This document shows positions 5,628 through 54,406 of a DNA stretch of 64,000 bases, piece after piece. Each line of letters starts with the position of its first letter. Position 1 is the first letter of the stretch. The translations under genes were made by a program, and so were the position numbers. The DNA is from Halomonas sp. HL-93 (lineage in GTDB: Bacteria; Pseudomonadota; Gammaproteobacteria; Pseudomonadales; Halomonadaceae): positions 3,968,001-4,032,000 of the forward strand of contig NZ_LT593974.1 of NCBI RefSeq assembly GCF_900086985.1, written 5' to 3'. The notes under the pieces are model-generated. The model did not search any database and was not told the origin of the DNA. It worked only from the letters and a program-made list of their open reading frames with translations.

Positions 5628-6320
5628 ATGCCGCAGGAAAAGGCTACCAATACGGTATTCGTCGTTACCGAAAAAAGCCCACAATCACAACTATTTGCGG
5701 AATATCTAGGGACTCATACCGAGTGTCATGTGCATATTCAGTCGCCCCATGAACGGGCCACCGCACCGACGGCAGGTAGCACCTTGATGCTAATCGACAG
5801 CGATCATATCAGCGTTGATACCCTTCCAGACTGGCAACACCAACTGCCCGAGGCGCTCAGCAACACACCCTTGGCCGCGTTTAACATCCGCGATATGGAT
5901 CATGCGCTTGAAGCCTTGTCATGCGCACAGTTGAAAGGGGTGTTCTATCGCCACGAGAGTCTGGATGTCATTTGTAAGGGAATTCATGCACTGCTCGAGG
6001 GCGAGCTATGGATGTCCCGCGAGCTAATGACACGGTTGATTCTGTTTTATCGTAAATATCAAAACAACGCCTTCCGCCCCGCCTGCGGGCTCACTAACCG
6101 AGAAATGGAAATCATCTCGCTGCTGAGTGCCGGGGCGTCTAACCATCAAATTGCCGAAAAGCTGTTTCTTAGCGAACACACCGTAAAGTCTCACCTTTAC
6201 AACATTTTCCGCAAAATCAACGTCCATAACCGTATCCAGGCGCTGAATTGGATCCATCAAAACTTGGGCCCCATTTTGCCGAATATTGAAACCGCAAGAA
6301 GCTTGCAGCGTCACCGTTAG
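5628..6320 (+). CDS. csgD: CsgD-like LuxR-family transcriptional regulator of curli
   Basis: CsgD is the master activator of curli and biofilm matrix genes. The protein is 230 residues: an N-terminal receiver-like domain without a clear phospho-acceptor motif, with the GVFYR segment also seen in E. coli CsgD, then a LuxR helix-turn-helix from about residue 154 (LTNREMEIISLLSAGASNHQIAEKLF, EHTVKSHLYNIFRKI). I chose the ATG at 5628, seven bases after GAGGG, over an upstream TTG at 5583. It directly precedes csgEFG on the same strand, which supports the assignment. Confidence 0.9.
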   Translation: MPQEKATNTVFVVTEKSPQSQLFAEYLGTHTECHVHIQSPHERATAPTAGSTLMLIDSDHISVDTLPDWQHQLPEALSNTPLAAFNIRDMDHALEALSCAQLKGVFYRHESLDVICKGIHALLEGELWMSRELMTRLILFYRKYQNNAFRPACGLTNREMEIISLLSAGASNHQIAEKLFLSEHTVKSHLYNIFRKINVHNRIQALNWIHQNLGPILPNIETARSLQRHR

Positions 6321-6342: not shown

Positions 6343-6882
6343 ATGAAAGCACTGCGCTATAAGCCCGTCATTCTGTGTTACTTCCTGCTCTGGGGAAGCA
6401 CGTTTCCCGCCTATGCCGAAGAAATGACAGAGCCGGTATCTCCTACTGACGATGGGCAAGCCGCTATCGCCGATGAGCAAGAAGCTATCGATGCCATTAA
6501 CCAGCTTTCAGGCCCCGATGGGGCAGAAGTTGAGCAACCTTCACAAGGGGGCAGCGAACTCACCGGCGTTATGGTTGACCGTACCATCACGATGGCGGGC
6601 AAAACCTTCTATCGTGCCTTCAGCCAACGCGCCATGGATAACATGATCATTGCCAATGCCACCATCACCATTCAAGAGCGGCCCGATGCTCGTTGGGGCA
6701 GCCAGGTGTGGATCATGGAAGGCAACCAGATGCATTTCCGTACCCAGCTCTCCCCAAGGATCAGTGAGGCCGACCGAGCGGCGGGGGAAGCCGTACAAAT
6801 CGTGGAAGAAGCACTACTGCGTCAACAACTGAACTCAGCGCTATCTTCCGACAAAGACTTAGGAAGAGAGGAGTTACCATAA
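6343..6882 (+). CDS. csgE: Curli assembly factor CsgE
   Basis: CsgE is a periplasmic protein that caps the CsgG secretion pore and gives it specificity for curli subunits. A signal peptide of about 24 residues ends in FPAYA. The C-terminal part matches CsgE closely (FYRAFS, TITIQERPDARWGSQVWI, ALLRQQLNSALSS, DLGREEL). Between them lies an acidic, low-complexity stretch of roughly 45 residues, so this protein (179 aa) is about 50 residues longer than E. coli CsgE. AGGGG before the ATG at 6343 supports this start. The stop overlaps the csgF start by one base. Confidence 0.93.
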   Translation: MKALRYKPVILCYFLLWGSTFPAYAEEMTEPVSPTDDGQAAIADEQEAIDAINQLSGPDGAEVEQPSQGGSELTGVMVDRTITMAGKTFYRAFSQRAMDNMIIANATITIQERPDARWGSQVWIMEGNQMHFRTQLSPRISEADRAAGEAVQIVEEALLRQQLNSALSSDKDLGREELP

Positions 6883-7304
6883 TGAAAACTAACCTAATGC
6901 ACACCGTGGGTTTAGGCTCAGCCCTACTGGCCGGTCTATTAACCTTTCAAGCTCACGCCGGGGAAATGATTTATGAACCTTTGAATCCCTCCTTTGGGGG
7001 CGATCCTTTTATGGGCAGTTACATGCTCAACAAGGCTCAATCCCAGGATACCAATTCTGATCCAGACTCACGTGACGTCGATCGACTCTCCTCCACCGAC
7101 CGGCTAATTCAAAGCCTGGAGAGCCGTTTGATTTCACAGCTATTGACCGACGTGGGATCGGGAGATATCGGCGAAGGCGGCTTTGATAGCGACGAATTCA
7201 GCGTTGTGGTGCGTGATGAAGGCGGCCAGCTCGTCGTACGCGTAATCGACAAGCTGACAGGGGATGAAACCAATATCAGTGTCGGCGGCTTATTTAATCC
7301 ATGA
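6882..7304 (+). CDS. csgF: Curli assembly factor CsgF
   Basis: CsgF sits at the outer face of the CsgG pore and couples secreted CsgB nucleator to the cell surface. The protein has a signal peptide (cleavage probable after AHA, about residue 26) and then the family's N-terminal pore-plugging segment in the form EPLNPSFGGDPFMGSYMLNKAQ. It is 140 residues, the usual size. It is translationally coupled to csgE, whose TAA overlaps its ATG, and precedes csgG by about 80 bases. Confidence 0.94.
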   Translation: MKTNLMHTVGLGSALLAGLLTFQAHAGEMIYEPLNPSFGGDPFMGSYMLNKAQSQDTNSDPDSRDVDRLSSTDRLIQSLESRLISQLLTDVGSGDIGEGGFDSDEFSVVVRDEGGQLVVRVIDKLTGDETNISVGGLFNP

Positions 7305-7383: not shown

Positions 7384-8064
7384 ATGAAGATTATAGCTAC
7401 TTTTTTAATAGCGGGTTTGCTCAGCGGCTGCGCGGGAATGGTTGCCAATTCAGAGAACCTTGAGGGAACCGAGGCCACCTTAACGCCGCGCGGTGCCACG
7501 TACCAAGATCTCGTATCGCTACCGCCGCCAGCGGGCAAAATTTTTGTCTCGGTATACGACTTCCGTGATCAAACCGGTCAGTATCGGCCTGCTCCCGCCA
7601 GCACCTTCTCGACGGCAGTGACGCAAGGCGCGGCCGCGATGCTAACGGGTGCTCTAGCCGATTCAGGCTGGTTTATCCCGCTTGAGCGGGTGGGGCTGCA
7701 AAACTTGTTAACGGAACGGCGAATTATTCGCGCTGAATTTGAGCGCTTTAATCAACCCGACACGCTCCCCTCATTACGTGCGGCTTCCGTCATGCTGGAA
7801 GGCGGCATTATTGCCTACGAATCCAACGTTAGGACCGGCGGTGCGGGTGCAGAATATTTTGGGATTGGGGCATCGGGAGAGTATCAGGTTGACCAAGTAA
7901 CGGTTAACTTGCGCGCGGTAGAAATTTCTACGGGTGAAGTGCTTGCCAATGTGACAACGACAAAAACTATCTATTCGAAAGAATTACGTGCTGGCGTGTA
8001 TCGGTTTATCGATTTCCGACGCTTATTAGAAGCAGAAGCTGGTATTACCGACGTCACCCCCTGA
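7384..8064 (+). pseudogene. csgG: Curli secretion pore CsgG, 5' part, interrupted by an insertion sequence
   Basis: CsgG is the nonameric outer-membrane lipoprotein pore for curli secretion. The N-terminus has a lipobox (LLSGC, Cys16) and the sequence follows CsgG closely (DQTGQYRPAP, SGWFIPLERVGLQNLLTERRIIRA, YFGIGASGEYQVDQVTVNLRAVE, YRFIDFRRLLEAE). After codon 222 the frame enters the insertion sequence and stops four codons later. The rest of the gene resumes at 9246 in the same frame, so the ancestral protein would have been about 280 residues, near the E. coli length. The truncated product lacks about 58 C-terminal residues and is probably inactive (inference). Confidence 0.95.
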
Positions 8065-8115
8065 TTGAGTAGCGCTACACTTTAGAGTCCGATCCTATGG
8101 GTAAGGAGATTGGAC

Positions 8116-8379
8116 ATGAAGAAGCGTTTCAGCGAAGAACAGATCATTGGCTTCTTGGCCGAAGCCGAAGCGGGACTGCCCATCAAAGAGCTATGCCGTC
8201 GGCACGGTTTCTCAGAAGCCAGTTACTATCTATGGCGGAGCAAGTTTGGCGGCATGAGCGTCCCCGATGCCAAGCGACTCAAAGAACTCGAAGCCGAAAA
8301 TGGACGCTTGAAAAAGCTGCTCGCAGAGTCGCTACTGGAAATGGAGGTCACTCGCGAGGCGCTGAGAAAAAAGTGGTGA
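8116..8379 (+). CDS. IS3-family transposase OrfA (copy 1)
   Basis: This 87-residue DNA-binding protein begins [20 protein letters not shown] and contains a helix-turn-helix ([22 protein letters not shown]) followed by a leucine-zipper-like coiled coil ([23 protein letters not shown]). The start at 8116 is preceded by AAGGAGA. It ends just after a slippery A6G run, so a fraction of ribosomes should shift into the orfB frame. Confidence 0.93.
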
Positions 8380-9236
8380 GCGCCCCGGCACGCCGAGACG
8401 TGGTGCGCTTTATGGTGTCACGTGGCCTGAGTGAGCGCAGAGCGCTCCGTGTCATTCGTATGAGTGCCAGTGCATTGCGCTACCAGCCGGCCCCTGACCG
8501 CAATGAGACATTGCGTGAACGCATTGTTGCCTTGGCACACCGGCATCGCCGCTATGGCGCTGGCATGATCTACCTGAAGCTGCGTCAGGCCGGAGAACCG
8601 GTCAATCACAAGCGTGTTGAGCGTCTGTATGCGGAAGCTCGCTTGCAGGTGAAGCGTCGCAAGCGCAAGAAGGTTCCCATGTCTGAGCGAAAGCCACTTG
8701 GTCGCCCTGGGGCTGCCAATCAGGTCTGGTCAATGGATTTTGTGTTTGACCGGACGGCAGACGGACGAGTGATAAAGAGCCTCACGGTTGTCGATGACGC
8801 CACCCATGAAGCCGTGGCGATCGTGCCTGAACGTGCCATTAGCGGACTGTTTTTAACACGTATTCTGGATCACCTGGCCCTACAACGTGGCCTACCGAGC
8901 GCCATTCGTACGGATAATGGAAAGGAGTTCTGTGGGCGCGCCATGCTGTCATGGGCGCATCTACGTGGCGTTGCCCTGTTTTTAATCGAACCTGGAAAAC
9001 CCAACCAAAACGCCTACATCGAATCGTTCAATGGGCGCTTTCGAGATGAATGCCTAAATGAGCATTGGTTCACCAGCCTTCAACACGCCCAGGTTGTCAT
9101 CGAGGCATGGCGGCGGGAGTACAACGAAGAAAGACCGAAGAAGAGTCTTGGAGGGCTGACACCGTCAGCCTATGCCGAGCAACTGGTGGTAAAACACGAT
9201 AAAGTTATTTCTGACTCTAAACCCGGGTGCTACTGA
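8116..9236 (+). CDS. IS3-family transposase OrfAB, made by -1 frameshift (copy 1)
   Basis: The active transposase of IS3 elements is a fusion of OrfA and OrfB. The heptamer A AAA AAG at 8367-8373, in the correct phase for -1 slippage, lies two codons before the orfA stop and joins it to the orfB frame. OrfB has an HTH_21-like region ([25 protein letters not shown]) and an rve integrase core with the DDE residues in [13 protein letters not shown] and [21 protein letters not shown]. Both frames appear intact, so the element is potentially active (inference). Confidence 0.9.
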
Positions 9237-9245
9237 AGATGGGGT

Positions 9246-9422
9246 GACGTCGTTACCACCAACGAACCTGTGCAAATGGCGGTGATGTCTTCCATTGAAT
9301 CTGCGGTTATTCATTTGGTGGCACGAGGAGTAGAAAACAACCTTTGGAACCTCAGCGATGATGTCGATTTTGAGGATACCATCCTGTCCGATTACTTAAG
9401 TGCGCCTATTCCTCAATTATAA
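9246..9422 (+). pseudogene. csgG: Curli secretion pore CsgG, 3' part after the insertion sequence
   Basis: The separated C-terminal piece of csgG reads TTNEPVQMAVMSSIESAVIHLV and ends DYLSAPIPQL at a TAA (9420-9422). TNEPV followed by a helix and NLWNLSD matches the CsgG C-terminus. It has no start codon or ribosome site of its own. Removing the insertion and one copy of the duplicated target rejoins it in frame with the part at 7384-8064. Confidence 0.93.
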
Positions 9423-9476
9423 ATTAAATGCTTAAGCATTAAAAAACTAAACTATTAAACTTAGGCACAAAAATAA

Positions 9477-9505
9477 GGCTACCCAGTAAATGGGTGGCCT
9501 TTTTT
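9477..9505 (+). terminator. Terminator of the csgDEFG transcript
   Basis: A 9-bp stem (GGCTACCCA 9477-9485 with TGGGTGGCC 9491-9499, one G-U pair) is followed by six T. It lies 55 bases after the csgG stop. The stretch from here to csgB (9506-9680) is AT-rich and probably holds the csgBA promoter, though no clear pair of boxes can be named. Confidence 0.88.
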
Positions 9506-9680: not shown

Positions 9681-10208
9681 ATGAATCGGCAGCGCGCCAA
9701 TGGAGCACCAATGCGGCTCTTCCCAGCCAAGCACCAGATGTGGTTGGTCACATTATTGGCCGCCACCTTACTTACCTCCACATCAGTTAATGCTGGCGAT
9801 AATCGAATCGAACAGTTTTTTAATCAAGTCGATACCGATAATTACCGGGGTAACTACAGCATTATTGATCAAGTCGGTAATAACAATAGTGCTGACGTTA
9901 ATCAGTCTTACTCTGCCAGTTATCAACGCGGTAATTTTTCAAATATTCGCCAAGTGGGCAATTTTAATAATGCCACTATTAACCAGACAGGTGGTAATAA
10001 CTTTGGCGTGATTTTACAGAAAGGCAATGAACACGAAGCCAGTATTAGCCAAGCAGGAAGACAGCGCGAACTCAAAGCGTATGTTTCTCAGTCAGGCAGT
10101 AGAAGTGATATCCAGATTTCACAATCGGGGAGTGGCTACCGAAGCATTAACGTTGAGCAAAAAGCTTATTCGGGTAATGCACGCCCAGTCACCGTCGAAA
10201 CCTACTGA
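9681..10208 (+). CDS. csgB: Curli nucleator / minor curlin subunit CsgB-like
   Basis: The product is a secreted amyloid protein. A basic N-terminus and signal peptide end near SVNAGD. The rest holds about five curlin repeats of the form S-x-I-x-Q-x-G-x-x-N-x-A-x-I-x-Q-x-G, the last ending in an irregular, more basic unit (NVEQKAYSGNARPVTVETY). Its position before csgA and this degenerate last repeat favour CsgB over CsgA. I start at 9681, eight bases after AGAGG; an in-frame upstream ATG at 9639 lacks a site. Length is 175 residues against about 151 in E. coli. Confidence 0.87.
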   Translation: MNRQRANGAPMRLFPAKHQMWLVTLLAATLLTSTSVNAGDNRIEQFFNQVDTDNYRGNYSIIDQVGNNNSADVNQSYSASYQRGNFSNIRQVGNFNNATINQTGGNNFGVILQKGNEHEASISQAGRQRELKAYVSQSGSRSDIQISQSGSGYRSINVEQKAYSGNARPVTVETY

Positions 10209-10265: not shown

Positions 10266-11060
10266 ATGAAAACTCAAATGACTGCTATCGCCGCTGCTAT
10301 CGCTCTTGCCATGAGCGCCTCTGCACTAGCACAGACTGAGCCAGCTTCTGAATTCGATGGCTCACGTGCAGCGATCGATGGAATGGCAGGCGCTGCTTAT
10401 GACGGCAGCGGTTTAGGCAACGACTCTTACATCGATCAGGAAGGTGATTACAACAACACCGATGTAACTCAGTGGGGTACGCAGATTTCACGCATCGAAC
10501 AAAACGGTGATGACAACACTGCCAACGTCACACAAGACGATGTGGTTGGTACTTCTGGCCCCGGGGAAAACTCTTCGCTAATTGAACAAGCTGATAATGG
10601 CAACCGCGCAGATGTGGCACAACTAGGCGAAGAAAACGACTCCATTATCAATCAGGAAGGTGGTTTCTGGGGTGCAGCCGTTAACTACGCTAATGTTGAC
10701 CAAGATGGCTACCGCAATGACTCTTGGGTAGATCAGGATGGCTTTATGAACAAATCAAGTGTCGTCCAGGATGGCGACCTGAACGATAGCTTCGTGAAGT
10801 CTGAAGGCAACTTCAACAAAACCTATACTACACAAACCGGTGATGAGCTGGATAGCGATATTATCTCGCTAGGCGACTGGAACTACACCGCTGTCACCCA
10901 GGATGGCTACGGACATGATTCCTTTGTTCGTTATCAGGGTAACGGTAACACCAGTTACGTAAACCAAAGTGGTGACGCAGGCGTAGCCTCTCAGCAAAAC
11001 TTCTCGCAGATCCGCACTACCGGTAATGGCAACTACAACAATGTTAATCAAGCCAACTAA
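10266..11060 (+). CDS. csgA: Major curlin subunit CsgA-like, Asp-rich, about nine repeats
   Basis: This is the probable fibre-forming curlin. It has a clear signal peptide (AMSASALAQ, cleavage about residue 22) and an N-terminal segment of some 30 residues, then about nine units of roughly 22-29 residues with N-D-S-x-(I/V)-x-Q-x-G and x-x-V-x-Q-x-G. Units 2 and 4 carry short insertions. At 264 residues it is over 100 longer than E. coli CsgA (151), with more repeats, and it is rich in Asp, as expected in a halophile (inference). AGGGG precedes the ATG, and a strong terminator follows. Confidence 0.9.
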   Translation: MKTQMTAIAAAIALAMSASALAQTEPASEFDGSRAAIDGMAGAAYDGSGLGNDSYIDQEGDYNNTDVTQWGTQISRIEQNGDDNTANVTQDDVVGTSGPGENSSLIEQADNGNRADVAQLGEENDSIINQEGGFWGAAVNYANVDQDGYRNDSWVDQDGFMNKSSVVQDGDLNDSFVKSEGNFNKTYTTQTGDELDSDIISLGDWNYTAVTQDGYGHDSFVRYQGNGNTSYVNQSGDAGVASQQNFSQIRTTGNGNYNNVNQAN

Positions 11061-11114: not shown

Positions 11115-11477
11115 TTAGCGGATCGAAACCGTTAACGTACCGCCCTTACCTTGGGTAGAAGAGCGCGAGCGGTTAGTGCCTTTTTGAATATCAACCTCTA
11201 GGCGCTCGCCGTCACTCAGTAGCGTCACGGTTCCTTCCAGCGCACTACCTTCAAAGCTAAACTCCGCCGGTACCGTGCCATTTTCCTCAATATGTTCTGT
11301 GGTTTCGCCCTCGTGTGTCACTTTCCAATGGGCGGAAAACGCAGCGCCTTCCGTGCCTTCCATGGTAATTCGGATCGGATTCATCGATGGCTCCTTTTGC
11401 GATTGCGCGCTTAGCGGCAGGACGGCTAACCCCGTTGCCAATAGCGTGGCACTTAGCCACATCCAGCGTTGTTTCAT
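11115..11477 (-). CDS. Small secreted protein of unknown function next to csgA
   Basis: I do not recognise the family. The 120-residue product has a typical signal peptide (MKQRWMWLS...LPLSAQS, cleavage about residue 26) and a mature part of some 90 residues with alternating polar and hydrophobic residues, suggesting an all-beta fold (EFSFEGSALEGTVTLL, RLEVDIQKG, GGTLTVSIR). GGGAG five to six bases before the ATG at 11477 decides the start. It converges on csgA. Size and location recall CsgC or CsgH, the periplasmic curli inhibitors, but I see no sequence match to CsgC, so that role is only a suggestion. Confidence 0.75.
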   Translation of the reverse strand: MKQRWMWLSATLLATGLAVLPLSAQSQKEPSMNPIRITMEGTEGAAFSAHWKVTHEGETTEHIEENGTVPAEFSFEGSALEGTVTLLSDGERLEVDIQKGTNRSRSSTQGKGGTLTVSIR

Positions 11478-11494
11478 AATGGCTCCCACGACGC

Positions 11495-52595: not shown

Positions 52596-52801
52596 AGTCC
52601 GCTGTGATCCACGATAGTACATAAAATGCTGTATTTAAAAATAAAATTATCAACCATTGTCTATTGTTGTCTATCTTTATCTAGCTTAAGCCAGCATTTT
52701 TTGGGTAGTATAGTGGGTAGTGTTTTGGCTTATTCCCCGCAATAGGCGTGATTTTCTCAAAAATACTCCCCACATCATGCGATCAATATGCAGGAGGGCT
52801 A
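52596..52801. other. Left arm of the integrated element, with paired GGGTAGT repeats
   Basis: This AT-rich, non-coding stretch lies between attL and the recombinase gene. It contains TGTCTATTGTTGTCTATC (a short direct repeat) and two GGGTAGT copies at 52703-52709 and 52715-52721, spaced 12 bases apart. The same pair with the same spacing occurs at the right end, so these may be recombinase arm sites. Confidence 0.6.
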
Positions 52802-53137
52802 ATGGGTAGCTTTACCGCCAAGAAGGTTCAGTCCCTGATTAAGGACGGGAAGCCGGGCCGCTATAGCGATGGCAACGGCCTTTACCTGATGGTCCCCAAG
52901 AAGGGTTCTCCCTACTGGATGCATCGATACACTTTCTCTGGTAAGCGACGTGAGTTGACGTTAGATAAATGCGCCGCTCTTTCCTTGGCTGAGGCTCGTG
53001 AGCATGCGGTAGAGACCCAGCGAGTAATCCGGAGCGGTGTCGACCCCGTCGAAGAGCGTAAGCGCGATGAACAGGCAATCATTCGCACTACCCAGGATCT
53101 CTTCAGGGATTGGCGACGTCACCCCCTGATTGAGTAG
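52802..53137 (+). pseudogene. Tyrosine recombinase (P4-type integrase), N-terminal fragment truncated by the insertion sequence
   Basis: The start follows AGGAGG and the product begins MGSFTAKKVQSLIKDGKPGRYSDGNGLYL, the N-terminal DUF4102 arm-binding domain of P4-type integrases, continuing WMHRYTFSGKRRELTLDKCAALSLAEAREHA. After LFRDWRR the frame enters the insertion sequence and stops. Across the restored target the frame still stops within about 20 codons (TAG), so the catalytic domain was already lost or shifted, or was deleted by the element. A second open frame at 54311-54406 (ETMRKRMEEKIRVHE) may be the old C-terminus. Confidence 0.88.
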
Positions 53138-53180
53138 CGCTACACTTTAGAGTCCGATCCTATGGGTAAGGAGATTGGAC

Positions 53181-53444
53181 ATGAAGAAGCGTTTCAGCGA
53201 AGAACAGATCATTGGCTTCTTGGCCGAAGCCGAAGCGGGACTGCCCATCAAAGAGCTATGCCGTCGGCACGGTTTCTCAGAAGCCAGTTACTATCTATGG
53301 CGGAGCAAGTTTGGCGGCATGAGCGTCCCCGATGCCAAGCGACTCAAAGAACTCGAAGCCGAAAATGGACGCTTGAAAAAGCTGCTCGCAGAGTCGCTAC
53401 TGGAAATGGAGGTCACTCGCGAGGCGCTGAGAAAAAAGTGGTGA
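53181..53444 (+). CDS. IS3-family transposase OrfA (copy 2)
   Basis: This is the same 87-residue HTH and coiled-coil protein as in copy 1, with AAGGAGA upstream of its ATG. No difference from copy 1 was noticed. Confidence 0.93.
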
Positions 53445-54301
53445 GCGCCCCGGCACGCCGAGACGTGGTGCGCTTTATGGTGTCACGTGGCCTGAGTGAG
53501 CGCAGAGCGCTCCGTGTCATTCGTATGAGTGCCAGTGCATTGCGCTACCAGCCGGCCCCTGACCGCAATGAGACATTGCGTGAACGCATTGTTGCCTTGG
53601 CACACCGGCATCGCCGCTATGGCGCTGGCATGATCTACCTGAAGCTGCGTCAGGCCGGAGAACCGGTCAATCACAAGCGTGTTGAGCGTCTGTATGCGGA
53701 AGCTCGCTTGCAGGTGAAGCGTCGCAAGCGCAAGAAGGTTCCCATGTCTGAGCGAAAGCCACTTGGTCGCCCTGGGGCTGCCAATCAGGTCTGGTCAATG
53801 GATTTTGTGTTTGACCGGACGGCAGACGGACGAGTGATAAAGAGCCTCACGGTTGTCGATGACGCCACCCATGAAGCCGTGGCGATCGTGCCTGAACGTG
53901 CCATTAGCGGACTGTTTTTAACACGTATTCTGGATCACCTGGCCCTACAACGTGGCCTACCGAGCGCCATTCGTACGGATAATGGAAAGGAGTTCTGTGG
54001 GCGCGCCATGCTGTCATGGGCGCATCTACGTGGCGTTGCCCTGTTTTTAATCGAACCTGGAAAACCCAACCAAAACGCCTACATCGAATCGTTCAATGGG
54101 CGCTTTCGAGATGAATGCCTAAATGAGCATTGGTTCACCAGCCTTCAACACGCCCAGGTTGTCATCGAGGCATGGCGGCGGGAGTACAACGAAGAAAGAC
54201 CGAAGAAGAGTCTTGGAGGGCTGACACCGTCAGCCTATGCCGAGCAACTGGTGGTAAAACACGATAAAGTTATTTCTGACTCTAAACCCGGGTGCTACTG
54301 A
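53181..54301 (+). CDS. IS3-family transposase OrfAB, made by -1 frameshift (copy 2)
   Basis: The slippery heptamer A AAA AAG is at 53432-53438, joining orfA to the DDE-containing orfB frame as in copy 1. The integrase core is complete ([32 protein letters not shown]), so this copy may also be active. Confidence 0.9.
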
Positions 54302-54310
54302 AGATGGGGT

Positions 54311-54406
54311 GACGTCGACGTCGAAACAATGCGCAAGCGGATGGAAGAAAAGATTAGAGTTCACGAACGTGAGGACTATGTAGACGAAAGTGCTGGCGAG
54401 AGATGA
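54311..54406 (+). pseudogene. Possible C-terminal remnant of the integrase after the insertion sequence
   Basis: A short open frame of 31 codons without a start reads ETMRKRMEEKIRVHEREDYVDESAGER before a TGA. Its charged helical composition resembles the end of a recombinase, but it is not in frame with the fragment at 52802, so a deletion or frameshift must separate them if they were one gene. Confidence 0.4.

Follow-up and report, generated by a model that had tools for sequence, protein, structure and literature searches.

The curli gene cluster of Halomonas sp. HL-93 lies on the forward strand of a 64,000-nucleotide window (the whole stretch of DNA analyzed here; all positions are counted from its first base) and consists of genes for a csgD-like regulator, csgE, csgF and csgG, followed by two genes for curlins, designated csgB and csgA (Table 1). 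The reading frame of csgG is not complete, the gene being split by an insertion sequence at 8049-9252. Translation from the csgG start at 7384 ends at a premature stop codon (8062-8064) after 222 csgG codons and 4 codons supplied by the element (the protein ends in GITDVTP*), and this 226-residue product is the present reading of the severed 5' part. The 3' part resumes at 9253 and continues in frame to its stop codon.

Table 1. Features of the curli cluster and of the element inserted in csgG (window positions)
Feature	Position	Strand	Evidence
csgD-like LuxR-family regulator, full length	5628..6320 (start 5583 or 5628)	+	PF00196, PF21155; 95.6% identity to Halomonas sp. A40-4
csgE	6343..6882	+	PF10627 above cut-off; NCBIfam CsgE below cut-off; 83% to A40-4
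csgF	6882..7304	+	PF10614 above cut-off; NCBIfam CsgF below cut-off; 83% to A40-4
csgG 5' part, codons 1-222 minus last base	7384..8048	+	PF03783; NCBIfam CsgG; 99.5% identity to Halomonas sp. A40-4 CsgG over 222 aa
Left TTAC, 4-bp target duplication	8045..8048	+	Flanks of element copies
IS3-family insertion sequence, 1204 bp, csgG orientation	8049..9252	+	Six genome copies; end-to-end similarity to ISCte3, IS1389, IS1403, IS1404; ends compared across copies
Left terminal inverted repeat, CGACGTCACCCC	8049..8060	+	Comparison of element copies
orfA (HTH_Tnp_1)	8116..8379	+	PF01527 E=9.4e-25; slippery A AAA AAG at 8367-8373 ahead of orfA stop
orfB part, -1 frame relative to orfA, integrase core	8379..9236	+	PF13683, PF00665; NF033516 IS3 transposase 221 bits (cut-off 160)
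Right terminal inverted repeat, 12-bp perfect match to left	9241..9252	-	Comparison of element copies
Right TTAC, 4-bp target duplication	9253..9256	+	Flanks of element copies
csgG severed 3' part	9253..9422; last 54 codons 9258-9419, stop 9420-9422	+	NCBIfam CsgG 229-274/277; 4UV2 alignment
Intrinsic-terminator-like hairpin, csgG-csgB gap	9475..9501	+	Terminator scan; similar hairpin after csgG in 34/38 relatives' loci
csgB-like curlin subunit	9681..10208	+	PF07012; top NCBIfam match CsgB, below cut-off; 75% to A40-4
Curlin subunit, csgA by place and length	10266..11060	+	PF07012; NCBIfam score higher for CsgB than for CsgA, neither reaching its cut-off; 75% to A40-4

The 5' part matches the CsgG domain (PF03783) with E=4.4e-67, shows homology along the E. 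coli protein and begins with a lipoprotein signal and a lipobox cysteine (MKIIATFLIAGLLSGCAG, recognized by eye). In the 277-position NCBIfam CsgG model, the 5' piece covers positions 9-224 and the 3' piece positions 229-274, and each by itself scores below the 505-bit cut-off for the full-length protein. The two pieces align with residues 10-222 and 222-274 (precursor numbering) of the solved CsgG chain 3x2r, and the 55 codons from 9255 align with mature residues 207-259 of 4UV2. With the element removed, csgG would have 222 and 54, that is 276, codons, the same length as in the relatives. A profile search of the genome (a single contig, 4,144,442 bp in length, with a completeness of 99.99%) returned this one PF03783 match, and no second CsgG was found anywhere across the one-contig assembly, although a further copy might reside on a plasmid absent from it; an intact second copy had been named as the finding that would speak against a loss. 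The first-pass annotation, which had csgG cut after codon 222 by a 1.2-kb IS3-family element with the remainder in frame, is borne out on these points, the element measuring 1204 bp. Its figure of 58 remaining codons has to be replaced by 54, the other four codons that it counted not being those of csgG, and its expected empty site of about 280 codons by the 276 codons seen in 38 of 39 relatives' loci. In our reading, both earlier figures are explained if the motif GACGTC was taken as the duplicated target.

That motif belongs to the element itself, as it is found at the ends of copies elsewhere in the genome, and its candidacy as the target duplication was rejected on finding it at element ends across copies in this genome and in the relatives. 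A duplicated target does exist, as had been proposed, but it is TTAC, 4 bp in length. The genome carries six full copies of the element. On the right, every one of them ends in GACGTCG; on the left, three begin with CGACGTC and the other three with CGACATC. For the placement of the ends, the second copy in the window (L118) was used together with 17 copies from relatives (L119-L135, one full-length best match per genome; L136-L147 were left out). All 17 of these start with CGAC; 15 carry GACGTC, and 10 the exact CGACGTCACCCC, at both ends. An exact 4-bp target duplication, expected by chance in 1 of 256 copies, flanks 3 of the 6 copies in this genome and 7 of the 17 in relatives; the remaining 3 and 10, respectively, lack it, one of the 10 having a 3-bp duplication. 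Recombination between the three of six copies without a duplication (L002, L004 and L006) was considered, but their flanking 4-mers, compared by eye, show no matching exchange; two of these flanks form a reverse-complementary pair, which may be accidental.

Assignment of the element to the IS3 family is supported by the two overlapping frames, with a -1 frameshift inferred from the slippery sequence, by the D(35)E motif in orfB, in which 35 residues separate the second D from the E, and by the perfect 12-bp inverted repeats with a 4-bp target duplication. Target duplications in the IS3 family are generally 3-5 bp long. ISCte3, IS1389, IS1403 and IS1404, the closest full-length named matches in plasmid records, align over the entire length of the element (1-1204) at 68-73% identity; ISCte3, IS1389 and IS1404 presumably represent the IS407 subgroup of IS3. 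No named match to the exact element was found in the plasmid records, the only records in which one was sought. Of the other five copies in the genome, one matches the copy in csgG without a single mismatch, three show 5 differences and the last shows 7 (1189 bases compared; the cross-genome comparison took the best five candidates per genome and so includes five of the six copies found here). The identical copy (1204 bp) occupies window positions 53114-54317, 45 kb away, where it lies behind the beginning of a gene of the tyrosine-integrase type (Arm-DNA-bind_3, 52793-53113). It has no target duplication, and the adjoining DNA has therefore perhaps been lost or rearranged.

The other csg genes are full length when compared with those of the nearest relative, Halomonas sp. 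A40-4, in agreement with the earlier view that they are intact. The top NCBIfam match of the csgD-like regulator is CsgD, at 146.9 bits, below the cut-off of 250. The csgE, csgF and curlin products exceed the Pfam cut-offs and fall below those of NCBIfam, which we ascribe to the latter models having been built for enteric proteins. With a terminator-like hairpin lying between csgG and csgB, the csgBA genes probably have a promoter of their own, and the insertion would not necessarily shut them down. Hairpins of this kind were counted in the relatives without a shuffled control, and the whole region has 7 such sites against a shuffle mean of 6.8, that is, no enrichment. A simple sigma-70 scan of the csgG-csgB gap gave no site for a csgBA promoter, the whole region having 2 sites against a shuffle mean of 7.0. 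Judged by this layout, csgDEF and csgBA are probably still transcribed. On the minus strand, facing csgA, lies an open reading frame for 124 residues (11115-11489) with a signal-peptide-like start, which is present in 36 of 38 relatives' csg loci. It has no match in Pfam or NCBIfam, and PDB gives only noise, so that an attempt to identify it as CsgC or CsgH through these three resources failed; its place suggests a CsgC/CsgH-like chaperone.

A csgG match is present in 56 of the 82 genomes searched in the genus (Halomonas/Vreelandella), the source genome included. Uninterrupted frames of at least 279 codons were found in 54 of the 55 other csgG-bearing genomes, which disposes of the possibility that the relatives all carry the same interruption; in the remaining one (G031), csgG is split by a frameshift. 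For the comparison at the base level, 39 of the 80 loci, those of the named neighbors in Halomonas and Vreelandella, were used (L038-L074, L105 and L107), the 41 more distant loci being left out. Exactly 222 and 54 codons on either side of the insertion site were counted in 38 of these 39, the exception being L105, Halomonas olivaria TYRC17, with a frameshift in csgG like that of G031; the two are perhaps one and the same genome. Completeness of the G031 assembly is 86%, and a sequencing error is a possible source of its frameshift. In all 38 uninterrupted loci, the 54-codon end starts with TNEPVQ and is 67-87% identical to that in the window. The element was not seen in the csg loci of relatives in a megablast-type comparison, which covers similar copies only (L009-L117), and none of the 38 named loci has an exact match to the 41 bases at the start of orfA. 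Two relatives carry a second csgF/csgG pair (G023 C4:335456-336630 and G033 C1:3534388-3535533), the CsgG of which is 49% identical to that in the window, and in a 296-residue CsgG relative from a JGI source (P0002), a stretch of about 20 residues within the protein is duplicated in tandem.

Several observations indicate that the insertion is young. Halomonas sp. A40-4 has the nearest CsgG; we take it to be another species because its csg region is only 81-84% identical in DNA. The first 222 csgG codons differ from those of A40-4 by 2 nonsynonymous and 93 synonymous substitutions (dN 0.004, dS 0.97; the frameshifted L105 was left out of the substitution counts) and have neither a stop nor a gap. 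By our own rough arithmetic, which assumes that half of dS accrued on the source branch and that nonsynonymous and synonymous changes accumulate equally in a dead gene, the insertion would fall within approximately the last 1% of that branch, and at most the last 3% or so. The severed C-terminal part is 87% identical to that of A40-4, compared with 99.5% for the N-terminal part. This is not read as decay, since the C-terminal part varies across the genus and the window ranks sixth of 39 in mean dN; relaxed constraint on this part after the insertion was accordingly rejected, the window being no outlier. By these comparisons, the severed gene shows no decay. The existence of an element copy identical over 1204 bp, 45 kb away, was also counted toward recency. 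The single CsgG match, the intact relatives and the undecayed gene together bear out the earlier suggestion of a recent loss of CsgG function, and the strain probably stopped making curli only recently. As one genome of the species was compared, a loss throughout the species and a loss in one clone are indistinguishable, and the sequenced clone may be the only one to carry the insertion.

The consequences of the truncation can be judged from the E. coli protein. According to one study, residues I121, L172, L236 and W237 of E. coli CsgG form a pocket for Val3 of CsgA; a charged residue at I121 or W237 abolished the Congo red phenotype, those at L172 or L236 were less inhibitory, and almost nothing of the phenotype was left when W237 or D238 was deleted (PMC6957492). 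In the alignment, the lost 54 residues correspond to mature residues 208-259 of the E. coli protein, a stretch that by our own count takes in L236 and W237. The severed remainder still has the Leu-Trp pair, as do the four relatives that were aligned. Since the lost end holds this pair, the truncated product should fail in substrate recognition even if it folds. Not all of the lost end appears to be needed for the stability of the ring, as CsgG in the CsgG-CsgF complex was still a nonamer after protease trimming of 25 C-terminal and 31 N-terminal residues (PMC7304575). By residue numbers, that trim leaves the W237 equivalent in place. Export of curli thus very probably fails in this strain.

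The most coherent reading of the locus begins with the insertion of a mobile IS3-family element at codon 222 of csgG, generating the 4-bp target duplication. The 226-residue product, devoid of the C-terminal stretch with the Leu-Trp pair of the CsgA-recognition pocket, would be unable to make a functional pore for export, and no curlin would be assembled outside the cell, even though csgDEF, as well as csgBA behind the terminator-like hairpin, are probably still transcribed. The interruption is probably stable, because the IS3 family is not known for precise excision. Taken as a whole (a recent insertion in the only csgG found, a nonfunctional pore, curlins not assembled outside the cell, the neighboring genes probably transcribed, and a probably stable change), this account is one in which we have high confidence.

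Another account is that the sequenced clone acquired the insertion while being grown in the laboratory, so that it is uninformative about the natural strain. The lack of decay in the severed gene and the existence of one other identical element copy, the rest differing by 5 to 7 bases, fit such an origin. Against it there is nothing direct: the 226-residue protein forms a database cluster with two members on two contigs, which are not necessarily two isolates. A laboratory origin is unlikely, if still worth bearing in mind. It is less probable that the truncated CsgG is still partly functional, allowing CsgA to leak out, for instance, so that curli would be reduced or unanchored rather than absent. 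The idea draws on Shigella flexneri 2457T, in which csgG is cut by a stop codon and for which the authors hypothesised secretion without complete assembly, CsgA still serving in adherence and biofilm formation (PMC6854044), and on the 25 C-terminal residues of E. coli CsgG that are dispensable for an assembled ring (PMC7304575). However, the loss here comprises 54 residues, not 25, including the equivalent of the very W237 at which a charged residue is so damaging in E. coli, and the TNEPVQ-led end is preserved in every uninterrupted locus; we consider such residual function improbable.

The first-pass annotation had also offered a reversible phase switch, in which the element exits precisely in part of the population and curli are restored. 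The element does look intact, with orfA, the slippery site and an orfB with D35E, and its exact target duplication could be used by precise excision. Yet no dedicated precise-excision route is known in the IS3 family, and there are no grounds for expecting regular precise excision. No relative compared has the element at the csgG site (among similar copies in the megablast-type comparison, and by exact match in the named loci), so that the site is not a recurrent or conserved one. Besides, members of this family transpose via figure-of-eight and minicircle intermediates (PMC3219604). The switch is therefore not supported and deserves hardly any credence. Nearly as improbable is a standing polymorphism, in which non-exporters that lost the pore alone would persist among curli-making kin in a mixed population through transposition and loss of the variants, not through excision; the intact structural genes and the lack of decay would then be its mark.

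Curli are a major fibre of the biofilm matrix. In the genus, csgF is present in the same 56 of 82 genomes as csgG and missing from the same 26, so these secretion genes come and go together, and a fresh cut in csgG is one way in which such a loss could start; curlin repeats were detected in 57 of the 82 genomes, a set that is not quite that of csgF and csgG. The interruption of csgG is an ordinary gene knock-out that involves no new mechanism and changes no general understanding. Inactivated curli and other adhesin genes are already familiar, and published work describes adhesin clusters in which genes have been lost to stop codons, truncation or insertion sequences (PMC6854044). The strain may nevertheless provide a natural knock-out of the pore alone that would be of use as a control for work on halophile biofilms. 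In a search of titles and abstract openings for curli in Halomonas and insertions in csg genes, the case was not described among the matches listed.

Among known systems, IS492 of Pseudoalteromonas similarly interrupts a surface-polymer gene, and does so reversibly, but it belongs to a family other than IS3 and is known for precise excision, nothing comparable to which is shown by the element in csgG. ISCte3, IS1389, IS1403 and IS1404 resemble that element from end to end over its 1204 bp and in their IS3-type OrfA and OrfB, and differ from it in approximately 30% of the sequence. The closest parallel for the gene itself is provided by the csg pseudogenes of Shigella, where csgG is likewise truncated at its C terminus while other csg genes remain, csgA is also annotated as a pseudogene, and most adherence genes are transcribed (PMC6854044). 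In S. flexneri 2457T, however, the truncation is due to a point mutation creating an in-frame stop in a host-adapted pathogen, whereas in the halophile Halomonas sp. HL-93 an insertion sequence is responsible and the other genes of the cluster are intact.
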